From NCBI RefSeq assembly GCF_016595415.1, contig NZ_JAENIO010000035.1, forward strand, positions 1 to 45,489: a DNA stretch of 45,489 nucleotides. The letters are read 5' to 3'. The stretch's first letter is position 1, and each line of letters starts with the position of its first letter. Made by a program: the position numbers and the translations under genes. Origin of the DNA: Roseibacillus ishigakijimensis. GTDB lineage: Bacteria; Verrucomicrobiota; Verrucomicrobiia; Verrucomicrobiales; Akkermansiaceae. The notes under the pieces were generated by a model. That model was not told the DNA's origin, searched no databases, and worked only from the letters and a program-made list of their open reading frames with translations. Shown piece after piece: positions 12,744 through 28,800 of this stretch.

Positions 12744-15700
12744 ATGAGTAAACGTGTTTGGAATCATCCCGAAGTGCCGGCTGACGAGCTCGCTACGCGA
12801 GTTTGGCGCAGTCCCGGCGAGCTGGAAGGCAGTCCCTTGTTCCAGGATTACCTCGATCGCGAATTCCCCGAGAAGAGCGGCGAGCTGACCGAGGAAGAGC
12901 GCGAGCTTTCCCGCCGGAATTTCGTCAAGCTGATGGGGGCCTCCTCCGCGCTGGCTGGTCTCGGTCTCGCTTCTTGCCGCCGTCCGGAAACCTACATCGT
13001 GCCTTACACCGAGGCTCCCGAGTGGGTCATCCCGGGCAAGGCTCTTTATTATGCCTCCGCCATGCCCCGTCCTTCGGGCGCGGTGCCTTTGGTGGTGACC
13101 ACCTTCGAGGGTCGCCCCACCAAGCTGGAGCCCAATACTGAATGTCCTGATTCCGATGGCACCGATGCCTTCGTGCAGGCCTCCATTCTCAATCTCTACG
13201 ATCCCTTCCGTTCCAAGGATGTCCTCAAGAACGGCAAAAAATCGTCCCGTCAGGAATTCGATGCCGCTCTCGTCGAGTTGGCCAAGAATCCTGGTAAAAT
13301 TGGTTTTGTCTTCGGCGAAGACGACAGCCCGACCCGCAATCGCTTGGTGGGTGAACTGAAGAAGAAGTTCGCGGGTGCTCAAGTCTACCGCTATGAAGCA
13401 CTGGAAAGCGGAAACCCGCAGCAGGCTCTCGGTGAGGGTGTCAAAGCGGTGGTCGATTTTTCCAAGGCTGATCGGATTCTTTCCTTTGATTGCGATTTCA
13501 CCGAGCTCGACCATGTGGGAGCGGTGAAGCCCTTCTTTGATCGCCGTCAGGGTGGTTCCCACGACAAGGACAAGCTCTACGCTCACGAAATCGACCCGAA
13601 AAAGATGAATCGTCTTTATCAGGTCGAAGCCGCTTACTCTCTCACTGGCGGTATCGCGGATCACCGTCTCCGCACCGCACCCAGCCAAATCATCAAGATG
13701 GCCGCTGCCGTTGCGGCTGCCCTTGGCGTGGCCGGGGTGAGCGAACCCGCCGGACTTTCCGACGAAGAAAAGCAGTGGGTGAAAGCCTGTGCCGCCGATC
13801 TGCAAGCCCACGAAGGGAAATCCGCCGTTCTCGCGGGCTCCCGCCACTCGGTGGCGCTTCATCAATTGGTGGCCGCCATCAACAAGCGTCTTCGCAACCT
13901 CGGTGCGGACAAGCCCGTCAAGCTGGTGCAGACCGGGGGTCAGGGGTATGGCGATTTGGCCAAACTCGCTCAGGACCTCGATTCCGGGGCGATTGAGACC
14001 GTGGTCTTGCTGACTCCGGCGAATCCCGTTTACGACACTCCCGCCGATCTCGATTTCAAAGCGCTGCTGGCCAAGGCCAAGACCTCCCTTCATTGGGGCT
14101 TGCGCACGGACGCCACCGCCTACGCCGCGACTTGGCACCTTCCCGCCGCCCACTATCTTGAGAGCTGGGGGGACAGCAAAACGGCCACGGGTCATCATGC
14201 TCTCTTGCAACCTCTCATCCTGCCACTCTACGACGGAGTAGGGGAGTTGGAGTTGCTCAATGCCTTCCTCAACGAAGGTGAGCTGAAGCTGGGCGATGAG
14301 AAAACGCCTTCCGCTGGCTACGATGAAGTCCGCAAAACTTTCGATGCCGCCTTCGGTAAAGAGCTTTCCACTTGGAGCCAAGCGCTGCAAATGGGCTTCG
14401 CCGAGGCCAGCTACGAAGAAGCGACGTTGGGCAATGTTTCCCCCGATTTGGGTGAAGCGGTCAACGCTTCCGCACCGACTCAGGATTCTCTCGATGTTAT
14501 CTTCGCTTCCGATGCCTCGGTTTGGGATGGCCGCTATATCGACAATTCCTGGTTGCAAGAAGCGCCCGACCCAATTTCCAAGCTCACTTGGGACAACGTT
14601 GCTTACGTTTCACCCAAGACCGCCAAAGCTCTCGGTATTTCCGACAAGCTGGTCGAGCTGGAGCCCGTCAACAATGTCGCGGGCGTCATGACCAAGAATG
14701 CCCCCCGGCCCGAAATTGGGGAAGGGGAGAAGGCCCGCGCCCACATGGTCGATGTGACCTTGGGAGACAAGACCCTCAAGATTCCCGTCCTCGTTTCCTT
14801 TGGTTTGGCTGAAAACACCATCGTTTTGCCGGTGGGTTACGGTCAGGCTGCCGACGACGACCGCTTCTCGGCCCTCAAGTTCAGCAAGTCCAAGCCCACC
14901 GTCGGTCTCGTCGGGGTCAATAGTGGCTTCAACGTCTATCCTTTGCGCACGGCGGAAACGTCCTTCCTCGCTCGCGGCGCGAAAGTCGCCAACAACACCG
15001 GGCGCTACCCGGTCGCCTTGACTCAGGAGCACCACGCCATGTATGGCCGCGCGCTGGCCCGCGAAATCTCCACCAATCCGGTGGAATTCCACGGTCACGA
15101 AGCCGATTACAAGGAGCAGCTCAAGAAGGTCAAGAAGCAGGGCATGGACTCCCACATGCCCCCCAACAAGTCCATCTACAAGCCGAACGACGACAAGGGC
15201 CAGCCCTTGATGTCGGATAAGATTCACCAGTGGGCGATGGCGATTGACCTCAATGTCTGCACGGGCTGCAACGCCTGTCTGGTTGCCTGTCAGGCTGAGA
15301 ACAACATTCCGGTAGTCGGTAAGGAGCAAGTGGCCAAAGGCCGCGAAATGCACTGGATCCGCATGGACCGCTACTATGCCGCCGCTCCCGATGGCAATGA
15401 AGACAATCCGGAAATGATTCCTCAGCCGGTCGCCTGTGTGCAGTGCGAATTGGCTCCATGCGAAACGGTTTGTCCCGTCAATGCGACCGTCCACACTGAG
15501 GAAGGCCTCAATGCCATGGCTTACAACCGCTGTATCGGCACTCGTTATTGCGCGAACAACTGCCCGTATAAGGCCCGTCGCTTCAACTTCTTCGACTACA
15601 ACAAGCGCAATCCTCTCGTGCCCAAGAACCTTTACAAAGGACCTCTGGGCGAGAAGCAAGTGGGTGATTCCCGTCACCTCCAGCGCAACCCGAACGTGTC

Positions 15701-16097
15701 CGTGCGGATGCGGGGGGTCATGGAGAAGTGCACCTACTGTGTGCAACGCCTCGAGGACGCCAAGATCAAGCGCAAGCAGATCACTCGCAAGAAGGCCCTC
15801 GGCGTGGCTTCCACCAGCGAACAAGCTTCCGTTTCCAACGAAGATCTCCGCATCAAGGTTGATTCGGTCAAGGTCGCTTGCCAGTCGGCATGCTCCGCCA
15901 ACGCCATCACCTTCGGCAACAAGCTCGATGGCGACAAGTCATCGATGGTGCGGGCCAAGAATTCCAAGCGGAATTACGACCTTTTGAACTACATCGGCAC
16001 CCTGCCTCGCACCAGTTACCTGGCACGGGTGAAGAACCCCAACGACAAGATGCCCGACGCGAAAAGCATCGGCCGGGCCACCATTAACATTCACTAA
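12744..16097 (+). CDS. actB: Alternative Complex III iron-sulfur subunit ActB (fused)
   Basis: A 1117-residue protein joining a molybdopterin-oxidoreductase-like domain (about 50-800) to a C-terminal ferredoxin-type domain. A twin-arginine signal ([17 protein letters not shown]) near residue 53 is followed by ASC. The C-terminal part has clusters [54 protein letters not shown] and [16 protein letters not shown] with a later CQSAC, enough for the four clusters described for ActB. Known ActB proteins lack the molybdenum cofactor. It sits on the periplasmic side and contacts ActA and ActC. Confidence 0.95.
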
Positions 16098-16105
16098 AGG
16101 GCAGC

Positions 16106-17595
<1,490 letters not shown>

Positions 17596-17596
<1 letters not shown>

Positions 17597-18150
17597 TGAG
17601 CACCACGGTTAAACGAGTTTACGGTTACTTGGCAGAGTTCGAGAGTGCCTCGAAACTCTACAAGGCAGCGGAAAAAGTCCGCGACGCGGGTTTCGAGAAG
17701 TGGGACTGCCACTCTCCCTATCCCATCCACGGTTTGGATGATGCCATGGGAATCAAGCGTTCAGTTCTTCCCTACTTCGTCTTCTTCGGCGGATTGACGG
17801 GATTCCTGACCGCCATCACGCTGGCCTATGTCACCCAGGTAGAGATCTACCCCACCGTGGTGCAGGGCAAGCCCGCCAACTTTTTCACCATTCCGGCGTT
17901 CTTCCCGGTGATGTTCGAGTTGACGGTTCTTTTCTCCGGTTTCACCACCCTCTTCGGACTTCTGGGTCTCATGCAGCTTCCGCGCTTGAATCACCCCCTG
18001 TTCGCCAGCAAGCAATTCGCCCGCGCGACTGACGATGGTTTCTTCATCTCCATCGAAGCCCGCGACCCCAAGTTCTCGGCTGAGGGCACCAAAAATCTCC
18101 TGAATGAAATTGGCGGAGCCAATATTGAACTCGTTGAAGACGAAAACTAA
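17596..18150 (+). CDS. actD: Alternative Complex III subunit ActD (DUF3341)
   Basis: A 184-residue protein of the DUF3341 family. The N-terminal cytoplasmic part (GYLAEFESASKLYKAAEKVRDAGFEKWDCHSPYPIHGLDDAMG) is the family signature. Two membrane segments follow (about 56-78 and 98-122), then a soluble tail with FARATDDGFFISIEARDPKFS. It overlaps actC by one base and ends 9 bases before actE. It is a structural subunit without cofactors in known ACIII complexes. Confidence 0.93.
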
Positions 18151-18159
18151 GCGCACATC

Positions 18160-18825
18160 ATGCTCAAATATTTCTTCATAGTTTACGCGTTCGTCGCCTT
18201 GGCGGTCGTGGGAATCTTCGGGATTCCCGGCACCAAGTTCGAGCGTCCTCCTTTCCGCCTCTTTCCCGATATGGATGAGCAGGACAAGTTGAAGGGCCAG
18301 CAGGCCAGCGACTTTTTCGCCGACGGCCGGGGTGCCCGATTACCCGCGCCTGGCACCATCCCCAATTCCGGGGATAATGGCGAGTTCTCCGTTGAATTCG
18401 GCGAAGGCCGCACGGGTTACTACTACACCGGCCACTTGGAAGGCTACTACGGCACCGGCATGCCCGAGGAGTTGGCTCTGACCGCTGACAACGCGGCTGC
18501 CTTCCTCGCTCGCGGTGAAGAACGCTACGGAATTTACTGCGCCATCTGCCATGGCGAATCCGGTGACGGCGAGGGTGTCGTCAAGCAACTCGGACTCTCC
18601 ACCGTGCGGAACCTGCACGATACCGGAGCCGCTGGCTTTGATGCCGAAAATTATCCCGATGGCCGCCTGTTCGAGGTCATCTCCAAAGGCAAAGGCCAAA
18701 TGGGTGCCTATGGCATGAATATTCCGGTCGAAGACCGTTGGGCCATCGTGGCCTTTGTGCGGGCGCTGCAAGAAGCGCGTGAAGTTTCTAAAGAAGAATT
18801 GGCTCAGAAAGAGGAGGGACAGTAA
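18160..18825 (+). CDS. actE: Alternative Complex III monoheme cytochrome c ActE
   Basis: A 221-residue protein with an N-terminal hydrophobic anchor (residues about 3-20). There is no clear lipobox in the part read. One c-heme site (YCAICHGESGDG) lies near residues 126-131. The likely axial Met is in KGQMGAYGMNI. ActE receives electrons from ActA and is the exit heme of ACIII. The stop TAA overlaps the ATG of actF (taatg). Confidence 0.92.
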   Translation: MLKYFFIVYAFVALAVVGIFGIPGTKFERPPFRLFPDMDEQDKLKGQQASDFFADGRGARLPAPGTIPNSGDNGEFSVEFGEGRTGYYYTGHLEGYYGTGMPEELALTADNAAAFLARGEERYGIYCAICHGESGDGEGVVKQLGLSTVRNLHDTGAAGFDAENYPDGRLFEVISKGKGQMGAYGMNIPVEDRWAIVAFVRALQEAREVSKEELAQKEEGQ

Positions 18826-20165
18826 TGGGACATCGAGTAACATCCGCCGATATACCGGTTGACGGCGAACAATTGCCAAAAAGTAAAGTGCAACTCCCGA
18901 TGCTCGTTACGGGCGGAGTGGCTGCCGTAGGACTCATCGCAAGCGCGATTTTCCTCTGGCTGGGACCAGAAACCATGCGAGGCAATTACAGCTTCTCCTG
19001 GCTCTTTGCGACCTTCTATTTCTTCACCATCGCTCTTGGTGGCTGCTTTTGGACTCTTTTGCATAACGTGTCCAACTCAGGGTGGGGGACTTCCGTCCGC
19101 CGCTTGATGGAGAACGTGGGCTTTGTTTTCCCCTTCATCTTTGTTTTTGCCCTTCCTTTGCTGTTCCCGCCTGTGCAGGCATTCCTCTTTGAGTGGATGA
19201 CCGAGCACAAGACGGCGATCGAGTATGCCCAGGAGCACAACCTGCCGGAGCAAACCGCCGTTGCCGGTCTCAAAGCCCGCCAAGCCGTTCACGATGGCAT
19301 GCTGGTGGACAAGAGCTGGTATCTCAGCCTCGGTTTCTGGCACCTCCGCTTCGTGGTCTTTTTCCTTGGCCTCGGTTTTGTCATCTGGAAGCTGCGCAAG
19401 CTCTCCGTGGACCAGGACACTTGTCCCGCTCCCGGCACCAAGCGCCTGTTTGCAGCGCGCGCCATGTCTTCTTGGGGAATCGCGGTCTTCGCCGTCACTC
19501 TGACCTTTATCGCGGTCGATTGGGTCATGGGACTCGACTTCACCTGGTTCTCCACCATGTGGGGGGTCTACGTCTTCGCTGGCTCGGCTCTCAATTCCAT
19601 GGTTGTCATCCTCATCACCAGCATCCTGCTGCGTAAGGCGGGATTCCTGAAGAAGGTTGTCACCAAGGAGCATGACCACCTGATGGGTAAGCTCATCTTC
19701 GCCTTCACTATCTTCTGGGCTTACATTTCCTTCTCCCAGTTCTTCCTCTACTGGTATGCCAACGTCACCGAAGAGGCCCGCTACTTCATCCTGCGGAATA
19801 CTGAAAATTGGAACATCCTCAGCTATGTCCTCGTTTTCGGTCACTTCGGCGCTCCCTTCCTCATGCTGTTGCGTTCGGATTGGAAAAAGAGCCACACTTT
19901 CATGCTCGTGATTGGTTTTTACCTCTTGGGAATGCACTTCCTCGATGTCTATCACATGATCATCCCCGAGCGTGGTCCTTCCGTTGGAAACATCATTGAC
20001 CATGAACCGCAGCTCTGGATGCCCTTTGCCTGGATCGGTGACCTCATTGCCTTCGTCATCGTCGGATGCGGCTTTGTCTTCTTCTTCCTGCGTAACTTGA
20101 CCTCGGCCGCGCTCTATCCGAATCGCGACCCTCGAATCCTCGAATCTGCTAACGTTCACAACTAA
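18825..20165 (+). CDS. actF: Alternative Complex III membrane subunit ActF (NrfD-like)
   Basis: A 446-residue polytopic protein paralogous to ActC, with about ten membrane segments. Diagnostic stretches include FAIALGGCFW-like text (FFTIALGGCFWTLLHNVSN), MSSWGIAVFAVTLTFIAVDW, DFTWFSTMWGVYVFAGS, FWAYISFSQFFLYWYANV and VYHMIIPE. It lies at the membrane face opposite ActC in known structures and lacks cofactors. It overlaps actE and the next gene by one base at each end. Confidence 0.93.
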   Translation: MGHRVTSADIPVDGEQLPKSKVQLPMLVTGGVAAVGLIASAIFLWLGPETMRGNYSFSWLFATFYFFTIALGGCFWTLLHNVSNSGWGTSVRRLMENVGFVFPFIFVFALPLLFPPVQAFLFEWMTEHKTAIEYAQEHNLPEQTAVAGLKARQAVHDGMLVDKSWYLSLGFWHLRFVVFFLGLGFVIWKLRKLSVDQDTCPAPGTKRLFAARAMSSWGIAVFAVTLTFIAVDWVMGLDFTWFSTMWGVYVFAGSALNSMVVILITSILLRKAGFLKKVVTKEHDHLMGKLIFAFTIFWAYISFSQFFLYWYANVTEEARYFILRNTENWNILSYVLVFGHFGAPFLMLLRSDWKKSHTFMLVIGFYLLGMHFLDVYHMIIPERGPSVGNIIDHEPQLWMPFAWIGDLIAFVIVGCGFVFFFLRNLTSAALYPNRDPRILESANVHN

Positions 20166-20560
20166 TGTCCGCCCCGACCGATACTCCATTAAAGCGTTTC
20201 ACCGCCTTTTGGGTGACCCTGGGAGCCTTCCTGCTCTTCGGAATCATCGCTCTCATTTTTGCTCCCATGAGCAATAGTGACGACGCCACCGCAGCCGATG
20301 AAGCCGGTGCCGCGCGCCGTCAGGCTGTTCGCGAAGCAGTCGATGCGGCCCAGGCTGAGAAGCTCGCCTTCGTCGAAGGAGAAGAGACGGCCCAAGTGCC
20401 CCCTTCACGCATTTTCGCGCAAGTGGGAGCCAAACTCGCTGCCAGCAAGCCCGCAGCGGTCAAAACTGAAGCCCAGAAAGTCGCCCCTGCCAACCAGAAC
20501 GCGGAAGAGGATTCTTCTGCTGACGAAGAGACCGAAACCACAGAATCTTCCGACCAATAA
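20165..20560 (+). CDS. Small membrane-anchored protein of the act/cox operon, unknown
   Basis: I do not recognise a family. The 131-residue product has one membrane segment (about 12-33), then a long hydrophilic Ala/Glu-rich tail ending in a strongly acidic stretch (EEDSSADEETETTESSD). It overlaps the actF stop by one base and ends 3 bases before the ccoN-like gene, so it is co-translated with the complex. The composition suggests a disordered tail. A role as an assembly or linking subunit is inference from position only. Confidence 0.75.
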   Translation: MSAPTDTPLKRFTAFWVTLGAFLLFGIIALIFAPMSNSDDATAADEAGAARRQAVREAVDAAQAEKLAFVEGEETAQVPPSRIFAQVGAKLAASKPAAVKTEAQKVAPANQNAEEDSSADEETETTESSDQ

Positions 20561-20563
20561 GTC

Positions 20564-22057
20564 ATGTCTGCCACTGCCCAGAATTCCGATCCCAAGGACG
20601 CCAAGTTGCGTGCCGATATCGACCGCTCTTTGCGGCACCCCGTGATGTTTTTCTTCACGAGCGGAGCCCTCTGGTTGCTCGTCACGGTCTTGCTTGGATT
20701 TGCCGCCTCCTTCAAAAGCCATTCGCCCGACTTTCTTGGTGATGCGGCTTGGGCGACCACCGGTCGTCTTTCTCTCGCCCATGAGAACGTCTTTATCTAC
20801 GGCTGGGCCTGCCAGGCGGCCTTCGGGGCCATCATTTGGCTTATGTCCCGCCTCTGCCGGAAGGAGTGTCGCAATGGCATTCTTATTCTCCTTGCCGGTC
20901 ACGTCTGGAACTTCGCGGTGACCTTCGGGCTCATCGGGATCCTCGGTGGCGCGAGCAGTGGGGTCACGTGGATGGCCTTCCCGACCTTCCTCTGGCCGGT
21001 ATTCTTTGTCGCTTACCTCTGCATCACCATCTGGTCGGTGATTCAGTTCCAGGTCCGCGAAGCCGGACACGTCTATGTCTCACAGTGGTATCTCCTTGCC
21101 GCTCTCATCGCTTTTCCCTGGATTTTCCTGAGCTCACACCTCTTCGTCTTCGTCTTTGACGGCCATCCTCTTATGAAGGCCGCCGTCTCGGAGTGGTATC
21201 GTTCCGGTTTGGTCTTCCTTTTCTTTGCTCCCGTGGGCATTGCTTCCGCTTACTACCTCGCTCCCAAGGTGACCGGGCGCCCCGTGCACAGCTACCACCT
21301 CGCCATGTTCGGCTTCTGGTCCCTGATGGTCATCGCTCCATGGGCGGGCTTCCAGAAGTTGGCTGGAGCTCCCATTCCGCGCTTCTTGCCTTACGTCGGC
21401 GCTGCCGCGACCGTTCTTTTCCTCATTCCTGCCTTGGCCGTTGCGGTGAACATTCTCCGCACCATCCTCGACGATGAAAGTGGAGCCGCTTCCCACAGCC
21501 CCTCCCTTCGCTTCACGATTGGTGGAATGGTTGGCATGCTCATTCTCGGCTTCCTCGGCCTGGTGCTCAATATGAGCGGGATTCTTGCCGCGACCCAATT
21601 CAGCCTCACTGGATACGGTCTCGATATTCTCGCGCTCTATGGCTTCTTCAGCATGTGTGCCTTCGGCCTCATCTACTTTGTCGTGCCTCGGGTCACCCGT
21701 CGCGAGTGGTTGTCCAAGCGATTCATCACCAGCCATTTTTACCTCTCCCTTTATGGAGTAGCGGCCGTGGTTCTCTTCTCTGTGATTGGTGGCTGGTTCC
21801 AAGGGGGAGCGCAAAATGATGCCGATGCTCCTTGGGCGGACGCGGCCACCTTTGGCCGGGCCTACGCGGTGGGCACAACCATGGCATGGCTCTTCATTTC
21901 GCTTGCCAACATCATTTTCCTTTCCCACCTCCTTCTCATGTGGGCGCGACTGGGTCGTCGCAGCACCCATCCCACCTTGCTCGACCATGGGCACCACACC
22001 GTTTCTCCCCACGGCCCGGAAGGAGACATCGAAGAAATCCAAGCAGCTAAGGCATAA
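20564..22057 (+). CDS. CcoN-like (cbb3 subunit I) protein lacking catalytic metal ligands
   Basis: A 497-residue membrane protein with about twelve segments that follows the cbb3 oxidase subunit I along its length. Shared landmarks are the TM2 histidine (SLAHENVFIYGW, His73), HVYVSQWY, PKVTGRPVHSYHL, FWSLMVIAPWAG, FGLIYFVVPRV and TSHFYLS. The catalytic histidines are gone. The family GHNAV is RSGLV here (Ser214 at the CuB His). The family HHLH after WAG is QKLA (Gln264, Lys265). The family GHVH is GLDI (Leu353, Ile355) at the heme ligands. It therefore cannot hold a normal CuB-heme centre. The frame is intact, with downstream ccoO- and ccoP-like genes, so this is a conserved-looking but non-catalytic protein, not a decaying pseudogene. 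Confidence 0.85.
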   Translation: MSATAQNSDPKDAKLRADIDRSLRHPVMFFFTSGALWLLVTVLLGFAASFKSHSPDFLGDAAWATTGRLSLAHENVFIYGWACQAAFGAIIWLMSRLCRKECRNGILILLAGHVWNFAVTFGLIGILGGASSGVTWMAFPTFLWPVFFVAYLCITIWSVIQFQVREAGHVYVSQWYLLAALIAFPWIFLSSHLFVFVFDGHPLMKAAVSEWYRSGLVFLFFAPVGIASAYYLAPKVTGRPVHSYHLAMFGFWSLMVIAPWAGFQKLAGAPIPRFLPYVGAAATVLFLIPALAVAVNILRTILDDESGAASHSPSLRFTIGGMVGMLILGFLGLVLNMSGILAATQFSLTGYGLDILALYGFFSMCAFGLIYFVVPRVTRREWLSKRFITSHFYLSLYGVAAVVLFSVIGGWFQGGAQNDADAPWADAATFGRAYAVGTTMAWLFISLANIIFLSHLLLMWARLGRRSTHPTLLDHGHHTVSPHGPEGDIEEIQAAKA

Positions 22058-22690
22058 ATGAAGTTCAAAGCATTTCTAGGCGGCCTCACCGTGGCCTTCG
22101 GTCTTCCCTGGGTTCTTGCAGTCGCAATTCCCTACGGCAAAATGGCAAATCTCGAGCCCGTTCGATTCGATGAAAACGTCGATGGCTTCGAGGGAGTCTA
22201 CGAGTTCAAGCGCAGTGGTCGCACCGATGGGGCCGGCATCTATGCCGCCAACGGTTGTGCCCTCTGTCACACCCAGTTGATTCGACCCAGCTTCGCCGGA
22301 ACCGACATGTATCGGGAGGATTGGGCGGGCATTCCGGCCGACCCCTCCAATGGCATCGAGGATAGCCGCCGGGAGACTAATCCCTACGACTTTGCCGGGG
22401 AGAAATTCGCCTACATCGGCCAGTCCCGAGTTGGACCCGATTTGAGCAATGTGGCCATTCGCGCTGCCAAGCGGGGTCAAGCCGAAGGAATCACCGCCAA
22501 GCAGTGGTTGCTCGAGCACCTCTACAACCCGCGCAATTACGACTACCAGTCGGTTTGTCCTTCCGTTTCCTTCCTCTTCGAGGGGAGTGCCGACAAGCCC
22601 AAGTCTGACGCCAAAGCCTTGGCCGATTACCTCCTTTCCATGCGGAAAGACAATGTTATTCCCAAGTCCCTCAATCCCCGCGAATACTAA
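22058..22690 (+). CDS. CcoO-like membrane cytochrome c with Cys at the axial Met position
   Basis: A 210-residue protein with an N-terminal membrane anchor (about 5-25) and one c-heme site, CALCH (67-71), followed by TQLIRP as in CcoO/FixO. The later RVGPDLSNV and WLLEHLYNPRN also match CcoO. In the family the axial ligand lies in a segment like SNMPAY. Here the aligned, gap-free segment is SVCPSV, with Cys167 in place of Met. It starts directly after the ccoN-like stop (TAA ATG). It probably remains an electron carrier but with unusual heme ligation. Confidence 0.87.
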   Translation: MKFKAFLGGLTVAFGLPWVLAVAIPYGKMANLEPVRFDENVDGFEGVYEFKRSGRTDGAGIYAANGCALCHTQLIRPSFAGTDMYREDWAGIPADPSNGIEDSRRETNPYDFAGEKFAYIGQSRVGPDLSNVAIRAAKRGQAEGITAKQWLLEHLYNPRNYDYQSVCPSVSFLFEGSADKPKSDAKALADYLLSMRKDNVIPKSLNPREY

Positions 22691-22709: not shown

Positions 22710-23492
22710 ATGTCTGACCAAGACCCCAACGCGCGGCTCCGGCCCGATCTCGACGAAGATACAAATGTGGGCGAGACCCATGCGGTCTTCGAAGGTGCCA
22801 CCGCCGCCACCATCCGCGAGCGCCGTCTCCACGAGAACGGCATGGAACCCGTTCCTCTTTGGCTCTTCCTCTTTGCAGGCCTGGCCCTGCTGGTCGGAGG
22901 CGTTGTTCTCGCCAGCGGTGGCCGCTTATTCGACTACGGCCAGGACAGTATGTGGGCCAATGAGTGGATCCCGGCGGCGGCTAAAGACGACGGCCCTCCC
23001 ACCGAAGGGGAGATTCTTCCTTTCTTCATCAGCCAGGGTGCCAAGACTTACGGCAAATGCGCCGGTTGTCACGGGGCCGATGGTGCTGGCGATGGTGCCA
23101 ACTACCCGCCTCTCGCGGGTTCCGAGTGGGTCACGGGCGAGAACACCGAGGCTCTGGGTCTGATCATTCTCAATGGTTTGACCGGTCCCATCGAGGTGGC
23201 TGGCAAGACTTGGAACAGCGTCATGCCGGCACAAGGTCCGCTTTCCGCCAAGGAGTTGGCTACTCTGATGACTTATCTCCGCAGTGGCCTCAACGAAGTG
23301 GGCGACATCGTTTCCGTGGTGCAAGCTGAGGAGCTCATTGCCCTCTACGAAGAGCGTGGCGCGGGTAGCCCGGTCACCGCGAGCGAACTGCAAAGCAGTC
23401 ACATGAAAATGGTCGCCGGAGATTCGGTCGATCCGACAACCGTTATTGATTTTGAAACCTACGAGCCCGTCGGCAGTGCCGGTGGCAACTAA
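22710..23492 (+). CDS. CcoP-like monoheme cytochrome c
   Basis: A 260-residue protein. An N-terminal cytoplasmic stretch (1-45) with HENGMEPVPLWL leads into one membrane segment (about 48-70). A single class I cytochrome c domain follows with CAGCH (117-121), PPLAGSEWV and a likely axial Met in NSVMPAQG. CcoP normally carries two hemes; this one has one and a longer C-terminal tail (about 190-260) without recognisable motif. It lies 19 bases after the ccoO-like gene and 24 before coxA. Confidence 0.88.
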   Translation: MSDQDPNARLRPDLDEDTNVGETHAVFEGATAATIRERRLHENGMEPVPLWLFLFAGLALLVGGVVLASGGRLFDYGQDSMWANEWIPAAAKDDGPPTEGEILPFFISQGAKTYGKCAGCHGADGAGDGANYPPLAGSEWVTGENTEALGLIILNGLTGPIEVAGKTWNSVMPAQGPLSAKELATLMTYLRSGLNEVGDIVSVVQAEELIALYEERGAGSPVTASELQSSHMKMVAGDSVDPTTVIDFETYEPVGSAGGN

Positions 23493-23516: not shown

Positions 23517-25424
23517 ATGAGCGCAGCAGCACCAACCGCAGACCATCATGGTCACGATGATCATCACCACGATGATCACAACCCCAACTTCTTGCAGAAG
23601 TATTTCTTCTCGACGGATCACAAGACGATTGGAATTCAATATGGTCTCGCCTCCTTGACCTTCCTCCTCATCGGATTCTTCCTGATGATGGTGATGCGTT
23701 GGTCCATTGCCTACCCGCACGAGCCGCTTCCCGCCTGGATGAGCTTCCTCTTCTCGGAAGATTGGAAAGCCCGTTGGTTGCAGGATGGCATGGTGAAAGG
23801 GGAGACCTACAACATGTTCGGTGCCATGCACGGCACCATCATGGTCTTCCTCGGGGTGGTTCCTCTCGGATTCGGAGCTTTCGGCAACTACGTGACTCCG
23901 CTCCAGATTGGTGCCCCTGACATGGCCTTCCCCCGTTTGAACATGATGAGCTTCTGGCTCTACTTCGTGGGTGGAGCGATGATGATGGCTTCCTTCTTCC
24001 TCGATACCGGCGCCGCGCAATCCGGTTGGACCAACTACTCGCCGCTGGCAGGGATCCAACAATCGACCGCCCCCAACCAATGGATGACGGGACAGACCTG
24101 GTGGCTCCTGGCCATGGTGTTCCTGATTTCCTCTTCGCTCTTGGGTTCCGTAAACTTCATCACGACCATCATCAACCTGCGAGCCAAAGGTCTCACCTGG
24201 ATGCGTTTGCCCTTCTTCGTCTGGGCCATGTTGGTGACCGGTTTCCTTCTTCTCCTGGCTTTCCCGCCTTTGGAAGCTGCTGCCCTCATGCAGTTCAGCG
24301 ACCGCATCTTCGGCTCTTCCTTCTTCATGCCCTCCGGTCTCGTCACCGGAAATGGGGCCCTCGAGCTGGCCGGTAGTGGTAGCCCGCTTCTTTACCAGCA
24401 CTTGTTCTGGTTCCTCGGACACCCGGAGGTGTATGTTCTCCTTCTGCCGGCCGTTGCCTGTGTCGCCGAAATCATTCCCTGCAACACCCGTAAGCCTCTT
24501 TGGGGATACCGTCCCATGGTCTGGTCGGTGATGATTCTCGGTTTCCTCAGCTTCATCGTGTGGGCTCACCACATGTATCTCACAGGCATGGGACCGGTCA
24601 TTTCGACTTTCTTCCAGACCACCACGGTTCTGATTTCGATTCCTTCCGTGATTTTGCTCACCTCGCTCATCATCTCGATGTGGGGTGGCTCCATCCGCTT
24701 CAATGTGCCCATGCTTTGGGCCACCGCCTTCATCCCCATGTTCGGGATTGGTGGTCTCACGGGTCTGCCGCTGGCCTTCAACCTGGTGGGCCTGCACTTG
24801 CACGACACCTACTACGTGATCGGTCACTTCCACTACGTGGTGGCTCCCGGTATTCTCTTCGGACTCTTTGCCGGTGTTTACCATTGGTATCCCAAGATCA
24901 CGGGTCGTTACATGAACAATCTCCTGGGTCACCTCCACTTTTGGCCGTCCCTGATTTTCATCAACCTCCTCTTCTTCCCCATGCTGGTGCAGGGGATGGC
25001 TGGATTCCACCGTCGTTGGTATAACGGGGGAGATGCTTACTTGGCCCAGGCGAGCGAAAGCGCCAACGTCTTCGGCAATACCGTCGAGCAATACCTCCCG
25101 CTCAATATTCTCATGTCAAATGCGGCCTTCTGGCTCGCACTGGCCCAAGTGCCTTTCATCATCAACGTCTTCGTGGCCTGGTTCCGCGGACGCAAAGTGG
25201 AGAATGACAACCCTTGGGATGCCACCACTTTGGAATGGGCAACTCCCACCCCTCCCGGACATGGCAACTTCACCTTCGAACCTGCGGTCTACCGGGGCCC
25301 TTACGAATATTCCCGCCCTGATTGCGGTGATGACTTCCTCCCGCAATGGAATGAACCTGTTAAAGTTGCGACTTCTGCGGACGACGAACAGATCGACTGC
25401 GATTCCAAGACTCCTGTGGCCTAA
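23517..25424 (+). CDS. coxA: aa3-type cytochrome c oxidase subunit I
   Basis: A 635-residue heme-copper oxidase subunit that reduces O2. All metal ligands are present: His105 (heme a), His302 with cross-linkable Tyr306 in GHPEVY, His351-His352 (CuB), and His437/His439 in GHFHYV. GHPEVY with Glu304 and Asp135 in IGAPDMAFPR indicate an A1-type D channel. The K-channel motif TGIK of the family is replaced by SVIL, so Leu380 stands where the lysine should be. The N-terminus is His/Asp-rich (ADHHGHDDHHHDDH). It is followed by coxC after 23 bases. Confidence 0.97.
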   Translation: MSAAAPTADHHGHDDHHHDDHNPNFLQKYFFSTDHKTIGIQYGLASLTFLLIGFFLMMVMRWSIAYPHEPLPAWMSFLFSEDWKARWLQDGMVKGETYNMFGAMHGTIMVFLGVVPLGFGAFGNYVTPLQIGAPDMAFPRLNMMSFWLYFVGGAMMMASFFLDTGAAQSGWTNYSPLAGIQQSTAPNQWMTGQTWWLLAMVFLISSSLLGSVNFITTIINLRAKGLTWMRLPFFVWAMLVTGFLLLLAFPPLEAAALMQFSDRIFGSSFFMPSGLVTGNGALELAGSGSPLLYQHLFWFLGHPEVYVLLLPAVACVAEIIPCNTRKPLWGYRPMVWSVMILGFLSFIVWAHHMYLTGMGPVISTFFQTTTVLISIPSVILLTSLIISMWGGSIRFNVPMLWATAFIPMFGIGGLTGLPLAFNLVGLHLHDTYYVIGHFHYVVAPGILFGLFAGVYHWYPKITGRYMNNLLGHLHFWPSLIFINLLFFPMLVQGMAGFHRRWYNGGDAYLAQASESANVFGNTVEQYLPLNILMSNAAFWLALAQVPFIINVFVAWFRGRKVENDNPWDATTLEWATPTPPGHGNFTFEPAVYRGPYEYSRPDCGDDFLPQWNEPVKVATSADDEQIDCDSKTPVA

Positions 25425-25447: not shown

Positions 25448-27196
25448 ATGGAAATTCCCTACAACGTTACCCCTCGCAAGGATACCGGCCTTTACAATGC
25501 CAAAGTCGGCATCTGGCTGTTCCTGGCCTCGGAAGTGATGCTCTTTGGTGGCCTCTTCTCGGGTTATGTCTTCCTGCGTGTATATGCTGACTTCCCTTGG
25601 CCGGAGCGGACCCTTCCCATCGTGCCCGGATTGATCAACACCTTCATTCTGATCGCTTCTTCGGTGACGGTCGTCTTTGCCTGGGCATCGCTCAAGATGC
25701 GCAAGTGGCGGCAGTTCCAGGTCTATATGGTGATCACCCTGCTGTGTGCGGCAATCTTCATGGTCCTGAAGGCCTTCGAATATGACGCCAAGTGGAATCA
25801 CCAGGCCGTGCGCATGAAGGACTTCGTGGTCGTGGAAGGCCACACCCACAAATTCACCATCGATGGCGAGGGGCATTTGCACCACTACCATCCCGAAGAC
25901 GGGAAAAGCCAAGATAGCCATGACGAAGGTCAGGCGGTCAATGAGTTTGCTGAGAAAGGGTTTTATCTCACTGCCGCCAGCGGTGAGGCAGAAGCCCATG
26001 GGAGTGAGAATAAGAAGGGCGGTAAAGTTTCCGATCCCTTCGAGACCAACAAAATTGTCTTCAAGGGCAGCCGGTTGACCGTGGATCTCGAGAACTTCTA
26101 CGATCCCTTCATCCGGGACATCATGACCCAGGCCCAGAATCAGGGCAGCCAATTCACCCTCAGTGCCGATTTCGTCGGTCGCAAGTCCCACGAGGAATCC
26201 GAAGAGATTCTGGCTAAGAAGGGTGAGCTTCTCTCGCTGACCCTGCTGGACAAACTCAGCGAAACCCACCTCGCTGCCAAGGCGCACAATGCCAAGATCA
26301 AGACCGCCCAGAATCGGGATGCGTGGGCCAAGTTGCGCAAGAACCTCCCTGCGGAAGAGCGGAACAATCCCACCTATCTGCTGCGCGATCAGTTGGCCCC
26401 GGATGAAGAGTTCGACAAATTCATTGTGGAGAGCTCGTCCTCGGTGAGCTTCGAACTCGAGCCCGCCAAGACCTTCTATTTCCCACCACGCCGCGTGCGG
26501 GAAAGTGCGGATGCACTTTCCTTCAATGATGGCACGCTCATGCAAGGGGAATTGGATAGCAAGCACAGCGCCATCGAGATGGCTGCCGACGCCATCGACT
26601 TCCGTTTCGTTGCCCAGCGGGCTGAAGAGAAAGGAATCGACCCTGCCGAGGCCATCGAGAAAACCTGGCTCATGCAGAACAATCCTGAAGTGAAGGCCCT
26701 CTGGGAACAGCATTCTGCCAAGATCGCCAAATTGGAGGAGGAGCTGCTCAAGGAGCATGGCACCGACAAGAATGGCCAGCCCAAGCAGTTCCCGACCGAT
26801 ACCGAGCGCTACCGCATCACTTGGCAAGAGCTGGTGAACATGGGCGAAGGCAAAGAGGTGATGGGCGCGTTCAGCGGTTTCACCGGCCCCAGCCATACTG
26901 CGGACTATTCCAAGCATTTCCCCGAGCTGGTTATTCCACGGGAAGAAGTAAACCTGGAGTCCAAGTTTACTCCGCGTTGGAACAACTACTACGCCATCTA
27001 CTTCTTGATCACCGCCCTCCACGGTCTTCACGTCATTGGCGGAATCATCGTTCTCGGTCACTTCCTCTTCTTCGGTAAGAAGATTTACCTCAACAATCCC
27101 GAGCACCTCGCCAACCGGGTTGAAGTCGGCGGCCTTTTCTGGCACTTCGTTGACCTCGTCTGGATCTTCCTCTTCCCAATCCTCTACTTGATGTAA
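25448..27196 (+). CDS. coxC: Cytochrome c oxidase subunit III with a large internal insertion
   Basis: A 582-residue protein; bacterial CoxC of this five-TM type is usually around 200. Residues 1-113 hold the first three membrane segments (WLFLASEVMLFGGLFSGYVF, the PGLINTFILIASS helix, and the QVYMVITLL helix ending KAFEYD). Residues about 512-582 hold the last two (YFLITALHGLHVIGG and FWHFVDLVWIFLFP). In between, about 390 residues are hydrophilic, beginning with a His-rich stretch (GHTHKF, GHLHHYHPE) and continuing with mixed helical and charged sequence that I do not recognise. By the known subunit III topology this loop should face the periplasm. Confidence 0.93.
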   Translation: MEIPYNVTPRKDTGLYNAKVGIWLFLASEVMLFGGLFSGYVFLRVYADFPWPERTLPIVPGLINTFILIASSVTVVFAWASLKMRKWRQFQVYMVITLLCAAIFMVLKAFEYDAKWNHQAVRMKDFVVVEGHTHKFTIDGEGHLHHYHPEDGKSQDSHDEGQAVNEFAEKGFYLTAASGEAEAHGSENKKGGKVSDPFETNKIVFKGSRLTVDLENFYDPFIRDIMTQAQNQGSQFTLSADFVGRKSHEESEEILAKKGELLSLTLLDKLSETHLAAKAHNAKIKTAQNRDAWAKLRKNLPAEERNNPTYLLRDQLAPDEEFDKFIVESSSSVSFELEPAKTFYFPPRRVRESADALSFNDGTLMQGELDSKHSAIEMAADAIDFRFVAQRAEEKGIDPAEAIEKTWLMQNNPEVKALWEQHSAKIAKLEEELLKEHGTDKNGQPKQFPTDTERYRITWQELVNMGEGKEVMGAFSGFTGPSHTADYSKHFPELVIPREEVNLESKFTPRWNNYYAIYFLITALHGLHVIGGIIVLGHFLFFGKKIYLNNPEHLANRVEVGGLFWHFVDLVWIFLFPILYLM

Positions 27197-27202
27197 CACA
27201 CC

Positions 27203-27583
27203 ATGGCTGATTCTCCTGCAGAAATAAAAAAGGCTCAGAAGCTCTATTTGCTCATCGGGCTCACTCTCTTCTTCTTCACTGTCATTACAGTTGCGGTGGC
27301 GACGGTTGAAGCTCTCGACTTCGGCGGCCGCGGTTTCGACCATGTCGATGCCATCATCGGTTTGCTCATCGCGACCTTCAAGGCCTCCCTGGTGATGTTG
27401 ATCTTCATGCACTTGAACCACGAGAAGAAGTTGGTTTACTTCCTCTATGCCATGGCGATTGTCTTCGGTATTTGCCTGATGGGCTTGACCGGTTGGGCTT
27501 TCGAAGACCCGATTGAGTATGGCCAAGGCACCACCAGTGACAAGACCGGTTTCTACGACCCAACCAACACCCCTGAAGATTAA
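27203..27583 (+). CDS. coxD: Cytochrome c oxidase subunit IV (prokaryotic type)
   Basis: A 126-residue protein with three membrane segments (about 13-33, 47-70, 78-100) and the family signature ATFKASLVMLIFMHLNHEKKLVY. A C-terminal hydrophilic tail of about 25 residues follows. It starts 6 bases after coxC. It is an accessory structural subunit of the aa3 oxidase. Confidence 0.9.
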   Translation: MADSPAEIKKAQKLYLLIGLTLFFFTVITVAVATVEALDFGGRGFDHVDAIIGLLIATFKASLVMLIFMHLNHEKKLVYFLYAMAIVFGICLMGLTGWAFEDPIEYGQGTTSDKTGFYDPTNTPED

Positions 27584-28017: not shown

Positions 28018-28800
28018 ATGAAAGAATTTCTCGGCGTAACGGATAATTTCTCCATTCACGGAGGGGGCGTCGATCACATGATCGCTGTGATCCACTGGTT
28101 CATGTTGGCCCTTTTTGTGGGCTGGACTCTCTTTTTCCTCTTCACTCTCTGGCGTTTTGCCGCCCGCCGCAATCCCAAGGCCGATTACACGGGGGTCCGT
28201 AATCACGTGTCCACCCACCTTGAGGTCGGGGTGGTTGTGATTGAGGCTGTCCTCCTGTTGGGCTTTGCCTTCCCTCTCTGGCGCGAGCGCACTGATGACT
28301 ATGAGTCCATTCAAGCGAAGGACCCGGTGCGTGTGCGTGCCATCGGTTACCAGTTCGCCTGGAATTACCACTACCCGGGTGCGGATGGCAAATTCGGTCG
28401 CATCGACCTGCACCTCGCTTCCAATGTGGGTGACCCTTGCATTGATCCCGATGACCCGAACGGGTGGGATGATTTCACCACCTCGGTATTGAAGGTGCCC
28501 GTCGACAAGCCCTCCATCGTGATGGTGACTTCGACCGATGTGATTCACAACTACGCCATCGTCCCGATGCGGGTGCAGCAAGACGCCATTCCCGGGCAGG
28601 ACATTCCCATGTGGTTCACTCCCACCAAGCAGCTTGAGACCTATGTGGTCTGCGCCCAACTTTGCGGCGACCAGCACGCCAACATGCGGGGAACTATGGA
28701 GGTGGTGCGGCAGAGCTCCTTCGACTCTTGGGCCGCCGAGCAATCGGCTGCAGCGCTTGAACGCAATACGCCCCAAAAATCCGAGGTGGCTGCTCACTAA
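28018..28800 (+). CDS. coxB: Cytochrome c oxidase subunit II (CuA)
   Basis: A 260-residue protein with two membrane segments (about 25-45 and 70-88) and a periplasmic cupredoxin domain. CuA ligands are present: His177 (STDVIHNY), Cys212, Cys216, His220 and Met223 in CAQLCGDQHANM. Gln214 replaces the usual Glu, which binds through its backbone. The aromatic YQFAWNYHYP patch for electron entry is kept. Glu69, the K-channel entry residue of subunit II, is present even though CoxA lacks the channel lysine. No heme domain is fused, so electrons must come from a separate cytochrome. Unusually, coxB is the last gene. Confidence 0.96.
   Translation: MKEFLGVTDNFSIHGGGVDHMIAVIHWFMLALFVGWTLFFLFTLWRFAARRNPKADYTGVRNHVSTHLEVGVVVIEAVLLLGFAFPLWRERTDDYESIQAKDPVRVRAIGYQFAWNYHYPGADGKFGRIDLHLASNVGDPCIDPDDPNGWDDFTTSVLKVPVDKPSIVMVTSTDVIHNYAIVPMRVQQDAIPGQDIPMWFTPTKQLETYVVCAQLCGDQHANMRGTMEVVRQSSFDSWAAEQSAAALERNTPQKSEVAAH

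Follow-up and report, generated by a model that had tools for sequence, protein, structure and literature searches.

A CcoN homologue without metal ligands, retained in an alternative complex III operon of Roseibacillus ishigakijimensis, as a candidate scaffold for cytochrome c partners

Verrucomicrobial methanotrophs and Opitutaceae encode alternative complex III (ACIII) adjacent to a C-type oxidase (PMC8498564). In Rhodothermus marinus and Flavobacterium johnsoniae, ACIII forms supercomplexes with an A-type (c)aa3 oxidase, and the bridge between the two differs: R. marinus has a cytochrome c domain attached to subunit II of the oxidase (PMC5928083), F. johnsoniae a sixth ActA heme, carried by a mobile domain at the N terminus (PMC8552683). 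In R. marinus, caa3 receives its electrons directly from ActE (PMC5928083). We describe here a 45,489-nucleotide stretch of Roseibacillus ishigakijimensis DNA (assembly GCF_016595415.1, contig NZ_JAENIO010000035.1, positions 1 to 45,489; "the window"), in which an ACIII operon is followed by a three-gene module, here called N, O and P, and then by genes for an aa3 oxidase. N is an open reading frame (ORF) of 497 aa at 20564-22057 on the + strand, homologous to the catalytic subunit CcoN of cbb3 oxidases, that lacks five of the six histidine ligands of CcoN.

The window resembles the described systems in part. As in cbb3 oxidases, a subunit with the predicted CcoN fold is followed by homologues of CcoO and CcoP in the same gene order, but N is without the CuB and heme ligands, and O and P of the window are each monoheme. 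As in the methanotrophs and Opitutaceae, ACIII adjoins a C-type oxidase module (PMC8498564); in contrast to theirs, which is taken as active, the N of the window appears dead and an aa3 oxidase follows. The combination of ACIII with an A-type oxidase is shared with R. marinus and F. johnsoniae, whereas neither the subunit II cytochrome c domain nor the sixth ActA heme is encoded in the window, and no N-O-P module is described for those supercomplexes in the accessible parts of PMC5928083 and PMC8552683. The cbb3-like fused oxidase of Nitrospina gracilis also departs from the consensus near CuB, by a substitution called unprecedented (PMC3578206); there, one residue is replaced near retained histidines, unlike the loss of five of six ligands in N. 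No description of a ligand-less CcoN was found in searches of open-licence literature. What is known is the fold and the ACIII/C-type neighbourhood, and what appears new is a subunit emptied of its chemistry yet kept.

To read the ligand positions, N was aligned with 15 canonical CcoN proteins of related genomes, all of which have six histidines. N reads H73, S214, Q264, K265, L353 and I355. The three CuB histidines are replaced (S214, Q264, K265), as are both heme histidines of transmembrane helix 10 (L353, I355), and H73 of transmembrane helix 2 is the sole ligand left; individual histidines are assigned to hemes as in canonical CcoN. N lacks the heme b3 proximal histidine and the bis-histidine ligation of the low-spin heme b of CcoN, and the histidines for hemes b, b3 and FeB that define NorB are lost at the same positions. 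No histidine occurs at residues 202-241, 246-310 or 312-390, so none is able to slide into the lost sites. Numbering of the CuB ligands in Pseudomonas stutzeri was taken from PMC3578206, and W210 of N was equated with Trp203 by our own counting. The nearest fetched homologue, 85% identical to N, reads HAQKMI at the ligand positions; the nearest named relative is Roseibacillus persicicus, whose N is 85% identical. Chance or a sequencing error is excluded by this 85%-identical relative together with 133 of 198 distinct homologues that have at most three of the six histidines. From its sequence, we conclude that the ligand loss of N is real and that this paralogue of CcoN is catalytically dead; it is probably without heme and copper, and O2 reduction by it would be impossible via any known chemistry.

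Homology to CcoN is recognisable nevertheless over most of the protein. The Pfam COX1 model matched N over cut-off (2.7e-34), and phmmer aligned the CcoN chain 9g6b_A with residues 32-418 (3.6e-19), with further CcoN chains in the PDB scoring more weakly. N scored 88.1 bits against TIGR00780 (ccoN; cut-off 583.15); its ligand-bearing relatives likewise fall under the cut-off (220-229 bits), whereas a canonical fused CcoNO passes with 646. Together, N, O and P are under the cut-offs of TIGR00780, 00781 and 00782, and CcoO and CcoP partner homologues with CxxCH motifs adjoin N. An AlphaFold2 model of N, built from a 68-row alignment, had a mean pLDDT (predicted local distance difference test) of 90.3 and a pTM (predicted template modelling score) of 0.91. 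Foldseek with this model placed CcoN chains on top (3mk7_D, TM-score 0.83). VIA-align gave Z 44.7 against 3mk7_D, with a root-mean-square deviation of 1.9 over 441 residues, followed after CcoN by cytochrome c-dependent nitric oxide reductase (cNOR, Z 40.5) and A-type oxidases (near 33). By Pfam, model and PDB matches, N has the 12-helix COX1 fold, and the model predicts specifically a CcoN fold.

To place N among its relatives, homologues were collected from 58 related genomes, 80 named loci, 60 chosen places of a class survey and 24 further genomes. The class survey gave an N match in 219 of 286 genomes, most of them left unfetched, so that frequencies within the family describe a chosen sample. 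The 198 distinct sequences are those left after removal of four second copies of fetched contigs and of ten rows, canonical-type or fused, that came from nine loci (L219, L221, L223, L225, which is split into two pieces, and L229-L233); loci L235-L245 lie outside the alignment. Six histidines are present in 63 homologues and five in two, none has four, and 133 have three or fewer. Of these 133 ligand-less forms, 34 have none of the six histidines, none has both histidines of transmembrane helix 10, and H353 persists in two, the low-spin pair in three and the CuB trio in one (L202). The substitutes vary by lineage; in the order of the window (Verrucomicrobiales), position 264 is Q in 65/78 and 265 is K or R in 66/78. 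H73 is retained in 73/78 members of this order, with Phe in the other five, as against 3/55 other ligand-less forms, and position 355 is His in one of the 78 (L135). Ligand-bearing relatives occupy the same gene position, in an act-N-O-P order.

An earlier sequence-only reading of this DNA had called N a full-length CcoN homologue of heme-copper fold with Ser214, Gln264 and Lys265 at the CuB sites and the heme motif reduced to GLDI. The alignment returns the same residues, and the homology and fold are borne out by the matches and the model. A refuting condition and a check that it had named, other histidines in the active site and a survey of ACIII operons for the same variant, both came out in its favour, given the histidine-free segments and the 133 ligand-less homologues reported above.

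Several members of the family deserve separate mention. L202 (AHHHQK) retains its CuB histidines while the ligands of both hemes are gone. The two five-ligand forms, L170 (HRHHHH) and L091 (HHSHHH), carry single changes that are either early steps of loss or errors. L229, set aside above, is a 634-aa COX1 protein with six histidines, intermediate in its scores (249 and 185 bits) between this family and canonical CcoN; its genome has a ligand-less N as well. In the taxonomic family of the window, L138 and L139 have a far more diverged N (32% identity, end branches of 2.2-3.4) in genomes of 1.5-1.6 Mb, and surveyed genomes of the genus g3 gave no N match and a weaker ActC-like match than N-bearing genomes.

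Trees were computed from reduced sets of 74 and 110 rows by quick search, with branch support from the Shimodaira-Hasegawa-like approximate likelihood ratio test (SH-aLRT) and no bootstrap; the 110-row tree has five long end branches. On the 110-row tree, for which the ligand columns were masked, two changes to the ligand-less state are required, and well-supported branches force both. A ligand-less clade of 80 rows (SH-aLRT 99) is nested among ligand-bearing forms, and a second loss is seen in L151, beside the ligand-bearing L150. The order of the window forms one clade with support 100 in both trees. The ratio of nonsynonymous to synonymous substitution rates (dN/dS) was read for N alone, some coxA and actC pairings having taken a wrong ORF. 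It was 0.026-0.143 in 17 of 20 ligand-less pairs (dS was saturated in the other three) and 0.026-0.147 in eight ligand-bearing pairs. Ligand-less N is under strong purifying selection between close pairs.

What is conserved differs between the two forms. Of 125 positions conserved to at least 95% in the 65 ligand-bearing forms, 25 fall below 20% in the ligand-less forms, 52 stay above 80% and 48 lie between. The 25 that are nearly gone include all ligands except H73, plus W210, Y258, Y325, H345 and R438; the relaxed positions include the metal ligands and neighbours of these in sequence. Thirty-five positions are at least 90% conserved among the 133 ligand-less forms. This pattern suggests that the pocket decays and the fold does not. 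A conserved new ligand set was also considered and rejected: the columns of the window's order rich in His, Met, Cys or Lys (H73, H113, H455, H391, M94, M459, K51 and K235) do not refill the pocket sites, and most are not family-wide.

The cytochrome partners of N are kept along with it. Of 132 loci with a ligand-less N, 131 have a recognisable O next to it, with CxxCH in all 131, and P was found in 128 of 132, with CxxCH in 127 of the 128 (the exception lies at a contig end) and the axial Met retained in 125/126. One of the four ligand-less loci without a P match, L149, had ample sequence. actF lies upstream of ligand-less N in 128 of 132 loci, and the other four have less than 1 kb of flank. 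Beside ligand-bearing N, the counts are 62/62 of the O and 61/61 of the P proteins found, and actF is present in 57/65, with five loci lacking it despite at least 3 kb of flank. By these counts, dead N is accompanied by the cytochromes and the ACIII that also accompany live N. Two loci, L191 and L192, have two CxxCH motifs in P rather than one.

The O heme has changed in part of the family. Aligned with 3mk7_B, the axial Met of the CcoO heme falls on Cys167 of the window's O. The protein has three cysteines, Cys67 and Cys70 of the CxxCH motif and Cys167, which is therefore without a disulfide partner. At this position Met is found in 62/62 loci beside ligand-bearing N. Ligand-less loci outside the window's order have Met in 48/55 and Cys in 4/55, whereas those of the order have Cys in 57/77 and Met in 17/77, with Cys in all 24 loci counted in the window's taxonomic family. 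The switch between Met and Cys needs four changes on the tree (among rows with either residue). The O heme of the window's family is thus predicted to be His/Cys-ligated. In CcoO this heme presumably feeds the b hemes of CcoN; with that step gone, the ligand may have been free to change, and the re-ligated heme may leave room for a new use. Cys/His-ligated c hemes are known from thiosulfate dehydrogenases (PMC9562282), and the potentials of such hemes lie several hundred mV below +198 mV (PMC9562282).

Of the 44 loci of the window's order that have 6 kb of flank or more, 43 carry coxA a short way downstream of N (the exception is L135). Among 23 genomes with a ligand-less N and no coxA nearby, 22 hold an A-type coxA elsewhere, and the exception is 82% complete. 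Across the loci, with second contig copies included, ActA ORFs have five CxxCH motifs in 50/54 cases, the remaining four being short, and the motif is absent from all 65 CoxB ORFs found. Since neither published bridge domain is encoded in the window, a cytochrome would be wanted between ACIII and aa3, or ActE alone would have to serve. P keeps both CxxCH and Met and is therefore a candidate for the bridge.

Collectively, these results suggest that N is a pseudo-oxidase retained because it scaffolds, in the membrane, a cytochrome c module that serves ACIII and aa3, a reading to which we assign a probability of roughly 0.55. The starting point would have been an ACIII operon with N, O and P as an intact C-type oxidase module; the residues of N that bind CuB and the hemes would then have disappeared, and N would have been retained to hold and place the O and P cytochromes in the membrane. 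In the window's order, O2 reduction would fall to the aa3 oxidase encoded directly behind N-O-P. Menaquinol would be oxidised by ACIII, and electrons would leave through the ActA and ActE hemes, pass the His/Met heme of P and enter the CuA site of CoxB; this route from ACIII through P to CoxB appears the most likely course. N, O and P are probably assembled into one complex with ACIII and aa3. To the sequence-only reading N had looked selected and not decaying, which the open frame, the spacing of 3 nt before and 0 nt after N and the dN/dS values uphold. It had offered structural, quinone-related and electron-conducting roles. The structural role fits best, and conduction by N itself is unlikely because both heme sites are without ligands, though the cytochrome partners could conduct; no sign of a quinone role turned up, and no dedicated test for one was made.

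Several points weigh against this reading. The evidence for the scaffold comes from sequence and a structure model. By eye, O and P carry membrane anchors of their own, so that they may not need N as a scaffold. With Cys in place of Met, O is predicted to have a low potential and is an unlikely in-line carrier, and ActE may hand electrons over directly, without P. A strong ActC match without any N match was seen in at least six genomes. For loci outside the window's order, coxA is nearby in 9/31 ligand-less and 8/47 ligand-bearing cases, so that the link between N and an adjacent aa3 oxidase comes from one clade; a family-wide rule by which ligand loss goes with an adjacent coxA was dropped on these counts.

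The strongest alternative is that N-O-P is purely structural, a glue or assembly platform for an ACIII-aa3 supercomplex in which the N-O-P hemes take no part in respiratory flux and electrons pass from ActA or ActE directly to CuA. The direct donation by ActE to caa3 in R. marinus (PMC5928083) and the changed O ligand in the window's family speak for it, but almost all copies of P that were found retain CxxCH and Met, needless for glue, and CoxB of the window is without the cytochrome c domain that takes the electrons in R. marinus; we consider it unlikely, though well worth keeping in view. The O ligand lends itself to another reading, in which the O heme oxidises thiosulfate or thiols or senses redox state, electrons pass through P to aa3 and N anchors the module. 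In its favour stand the switches between Met and Cys (four changes on the tree, Cys in 57/77 of the order and 4/55 other ligand-less loci, against Met in 62/62 beside ligand-bearing N) and the unpaired Cys167, and thiosulfate dehydrogenases also use Cys/His c hemes (PMC9562282). It cannot explain the family, since Met is kept in 48/55 ligand-less loci outside the order and 17/77 within it, and we hold it to be improbable.

The remaining alternatives concern N itself. N might still hold a single b heme, with H73 on one side and a ligand that has escaped recognition on the other, for transmembrane electron transfer or quinone chemistry. The retention of H73 in most of the window's order suits this idea; its partner position 355, however, is His in L135 alone, H73 itself gives way to Phe in five members and is rare in other ligand-less forms, and no other conserved His or Met pair takes its place across the family, which makes a one-heme N decidedly improbable. 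That N is an active oxidase or nitric oxide reductase with an unusual metal site would agree with its structural match to CcoN and NorB; with both hemes and CuB deprived of ligands, and the replacing residues differing between lineages, we give this hardly any credence. Drifting residues at the ligand positions are what a decaying pseudogene would show, but the open frame, the low dN/dS and the 35 conserved positions refute this for the family, and its probability is close to nil.

If N is indeed the scaffold of a cytochrome module, its wider history might be as follows: an oxidase core was turned at least twice into a cofactor-free hub carrying a c relay from ACIII to another oxidase, with O re-ligated from Met to Cys in the window's family. 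We regard this as a tentative scenario, its chances somewhat below even. If true, the hub would be a third way of joining complexes III and IV, in addition to the two in which the oxidase or ActA itself carries a cytochrome domain. A dead N kept with its cytochrome partners in 133 distinct homologues separates a scaffold role of the fold from catalysis. It also gives a naturally occurring system in which to ask how electrons get from ACIII to oxidases, with ligand-bearing relatives at the equivalent operon position as a ready comparison. For genome-inferred microaerobic respiration, COX1 or CcoN homology alone would count these dead proteins as high-affinity oxidases.

Table 1. Genes of the ACIII, N-O-P and aa3 oxidase region in the window
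Feature	Coordinates	Strand	Evidence
actA, ACIII multiheme cytochrome c, 5 CxxCH, 243 aa	11994..12725	+	phmmer 8k9e_A 1.5e-49, 6f0k_A 7.3e-49
actB, ACIII Fe-S subunit	12744..16097	+	4Fe-4S dicluster domains; name from position and size
actC	16106..17596	+	phmmer 6f0k_C 3.7e-176, 6btm_C 1e-153; NrfD Pfam
actD	17596..18150	+	PF11821 ActD 203 bits; 6f0k_D 1.4e-46
actE, monoheme cytochrome c, 1 CxxCH	18160..18825	+	Cytochrome_CBB3 45 bits; name from position
actF	18825..20165	+	phmmer 6f0k_F (ActF) 1.2e-45
131-aa small protein between actF and N	20165..20560	+	ORF
N, ligand-less CcoN homologue (putative pseudo-oxidase subunit I)	20564..22057	+	alignment, Pfam, phmmer, model
O, CcoO-like monoheme cytochrome c, CALCH	22058..22690	+	FixO 46.4 bits (cut-off 29.6); 3mk7_B 1.1e-10
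P, CcoP-like monoheme cytochrome c, CAGCH, Met172	22710..23492	+	Cytochrom_C 43.3 and Cytochrome_CBB3 31.6 bits, over cut-off
coxA, A-type oxidase subunit I	23517..25424	+	COX1 433 bits; CtaD_CoxA 545.7 bits
coxC with large internal insertion	25448..27196	+	COX3 in two stretches of 582-aa ORF
cox4-like subunit IV	27203..27583	+	COX4_pro 41.2 bits
coxB, CuA subunit without cytochrome c domain	28018..28800	+	COX2 51.6 bits; no CxxCH

The genes around N are listed in Table 1. Homologues of actA, actC, actD and actF stand in order, with actB and actE recognised by domain or position, and together make up an ACIII operon. On the F. johnsoniae chain 6btm_A (444 aa), ActA of the window aligns solely to residues 248-405, which belong to the C-terminal half. 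CoxA retains the ligand motifs GHPEVY, HHM and HDTYYVIGHFHYV, and the genome (95% complete) has two COX1 matches in total, coxA and N. The small protein between actF and N has no NCBIfam match and no Pfam match over cut-off, and sequence matches to it occur in many relatives. In CoxC, several hundred residues separate the two COX3 stretches.
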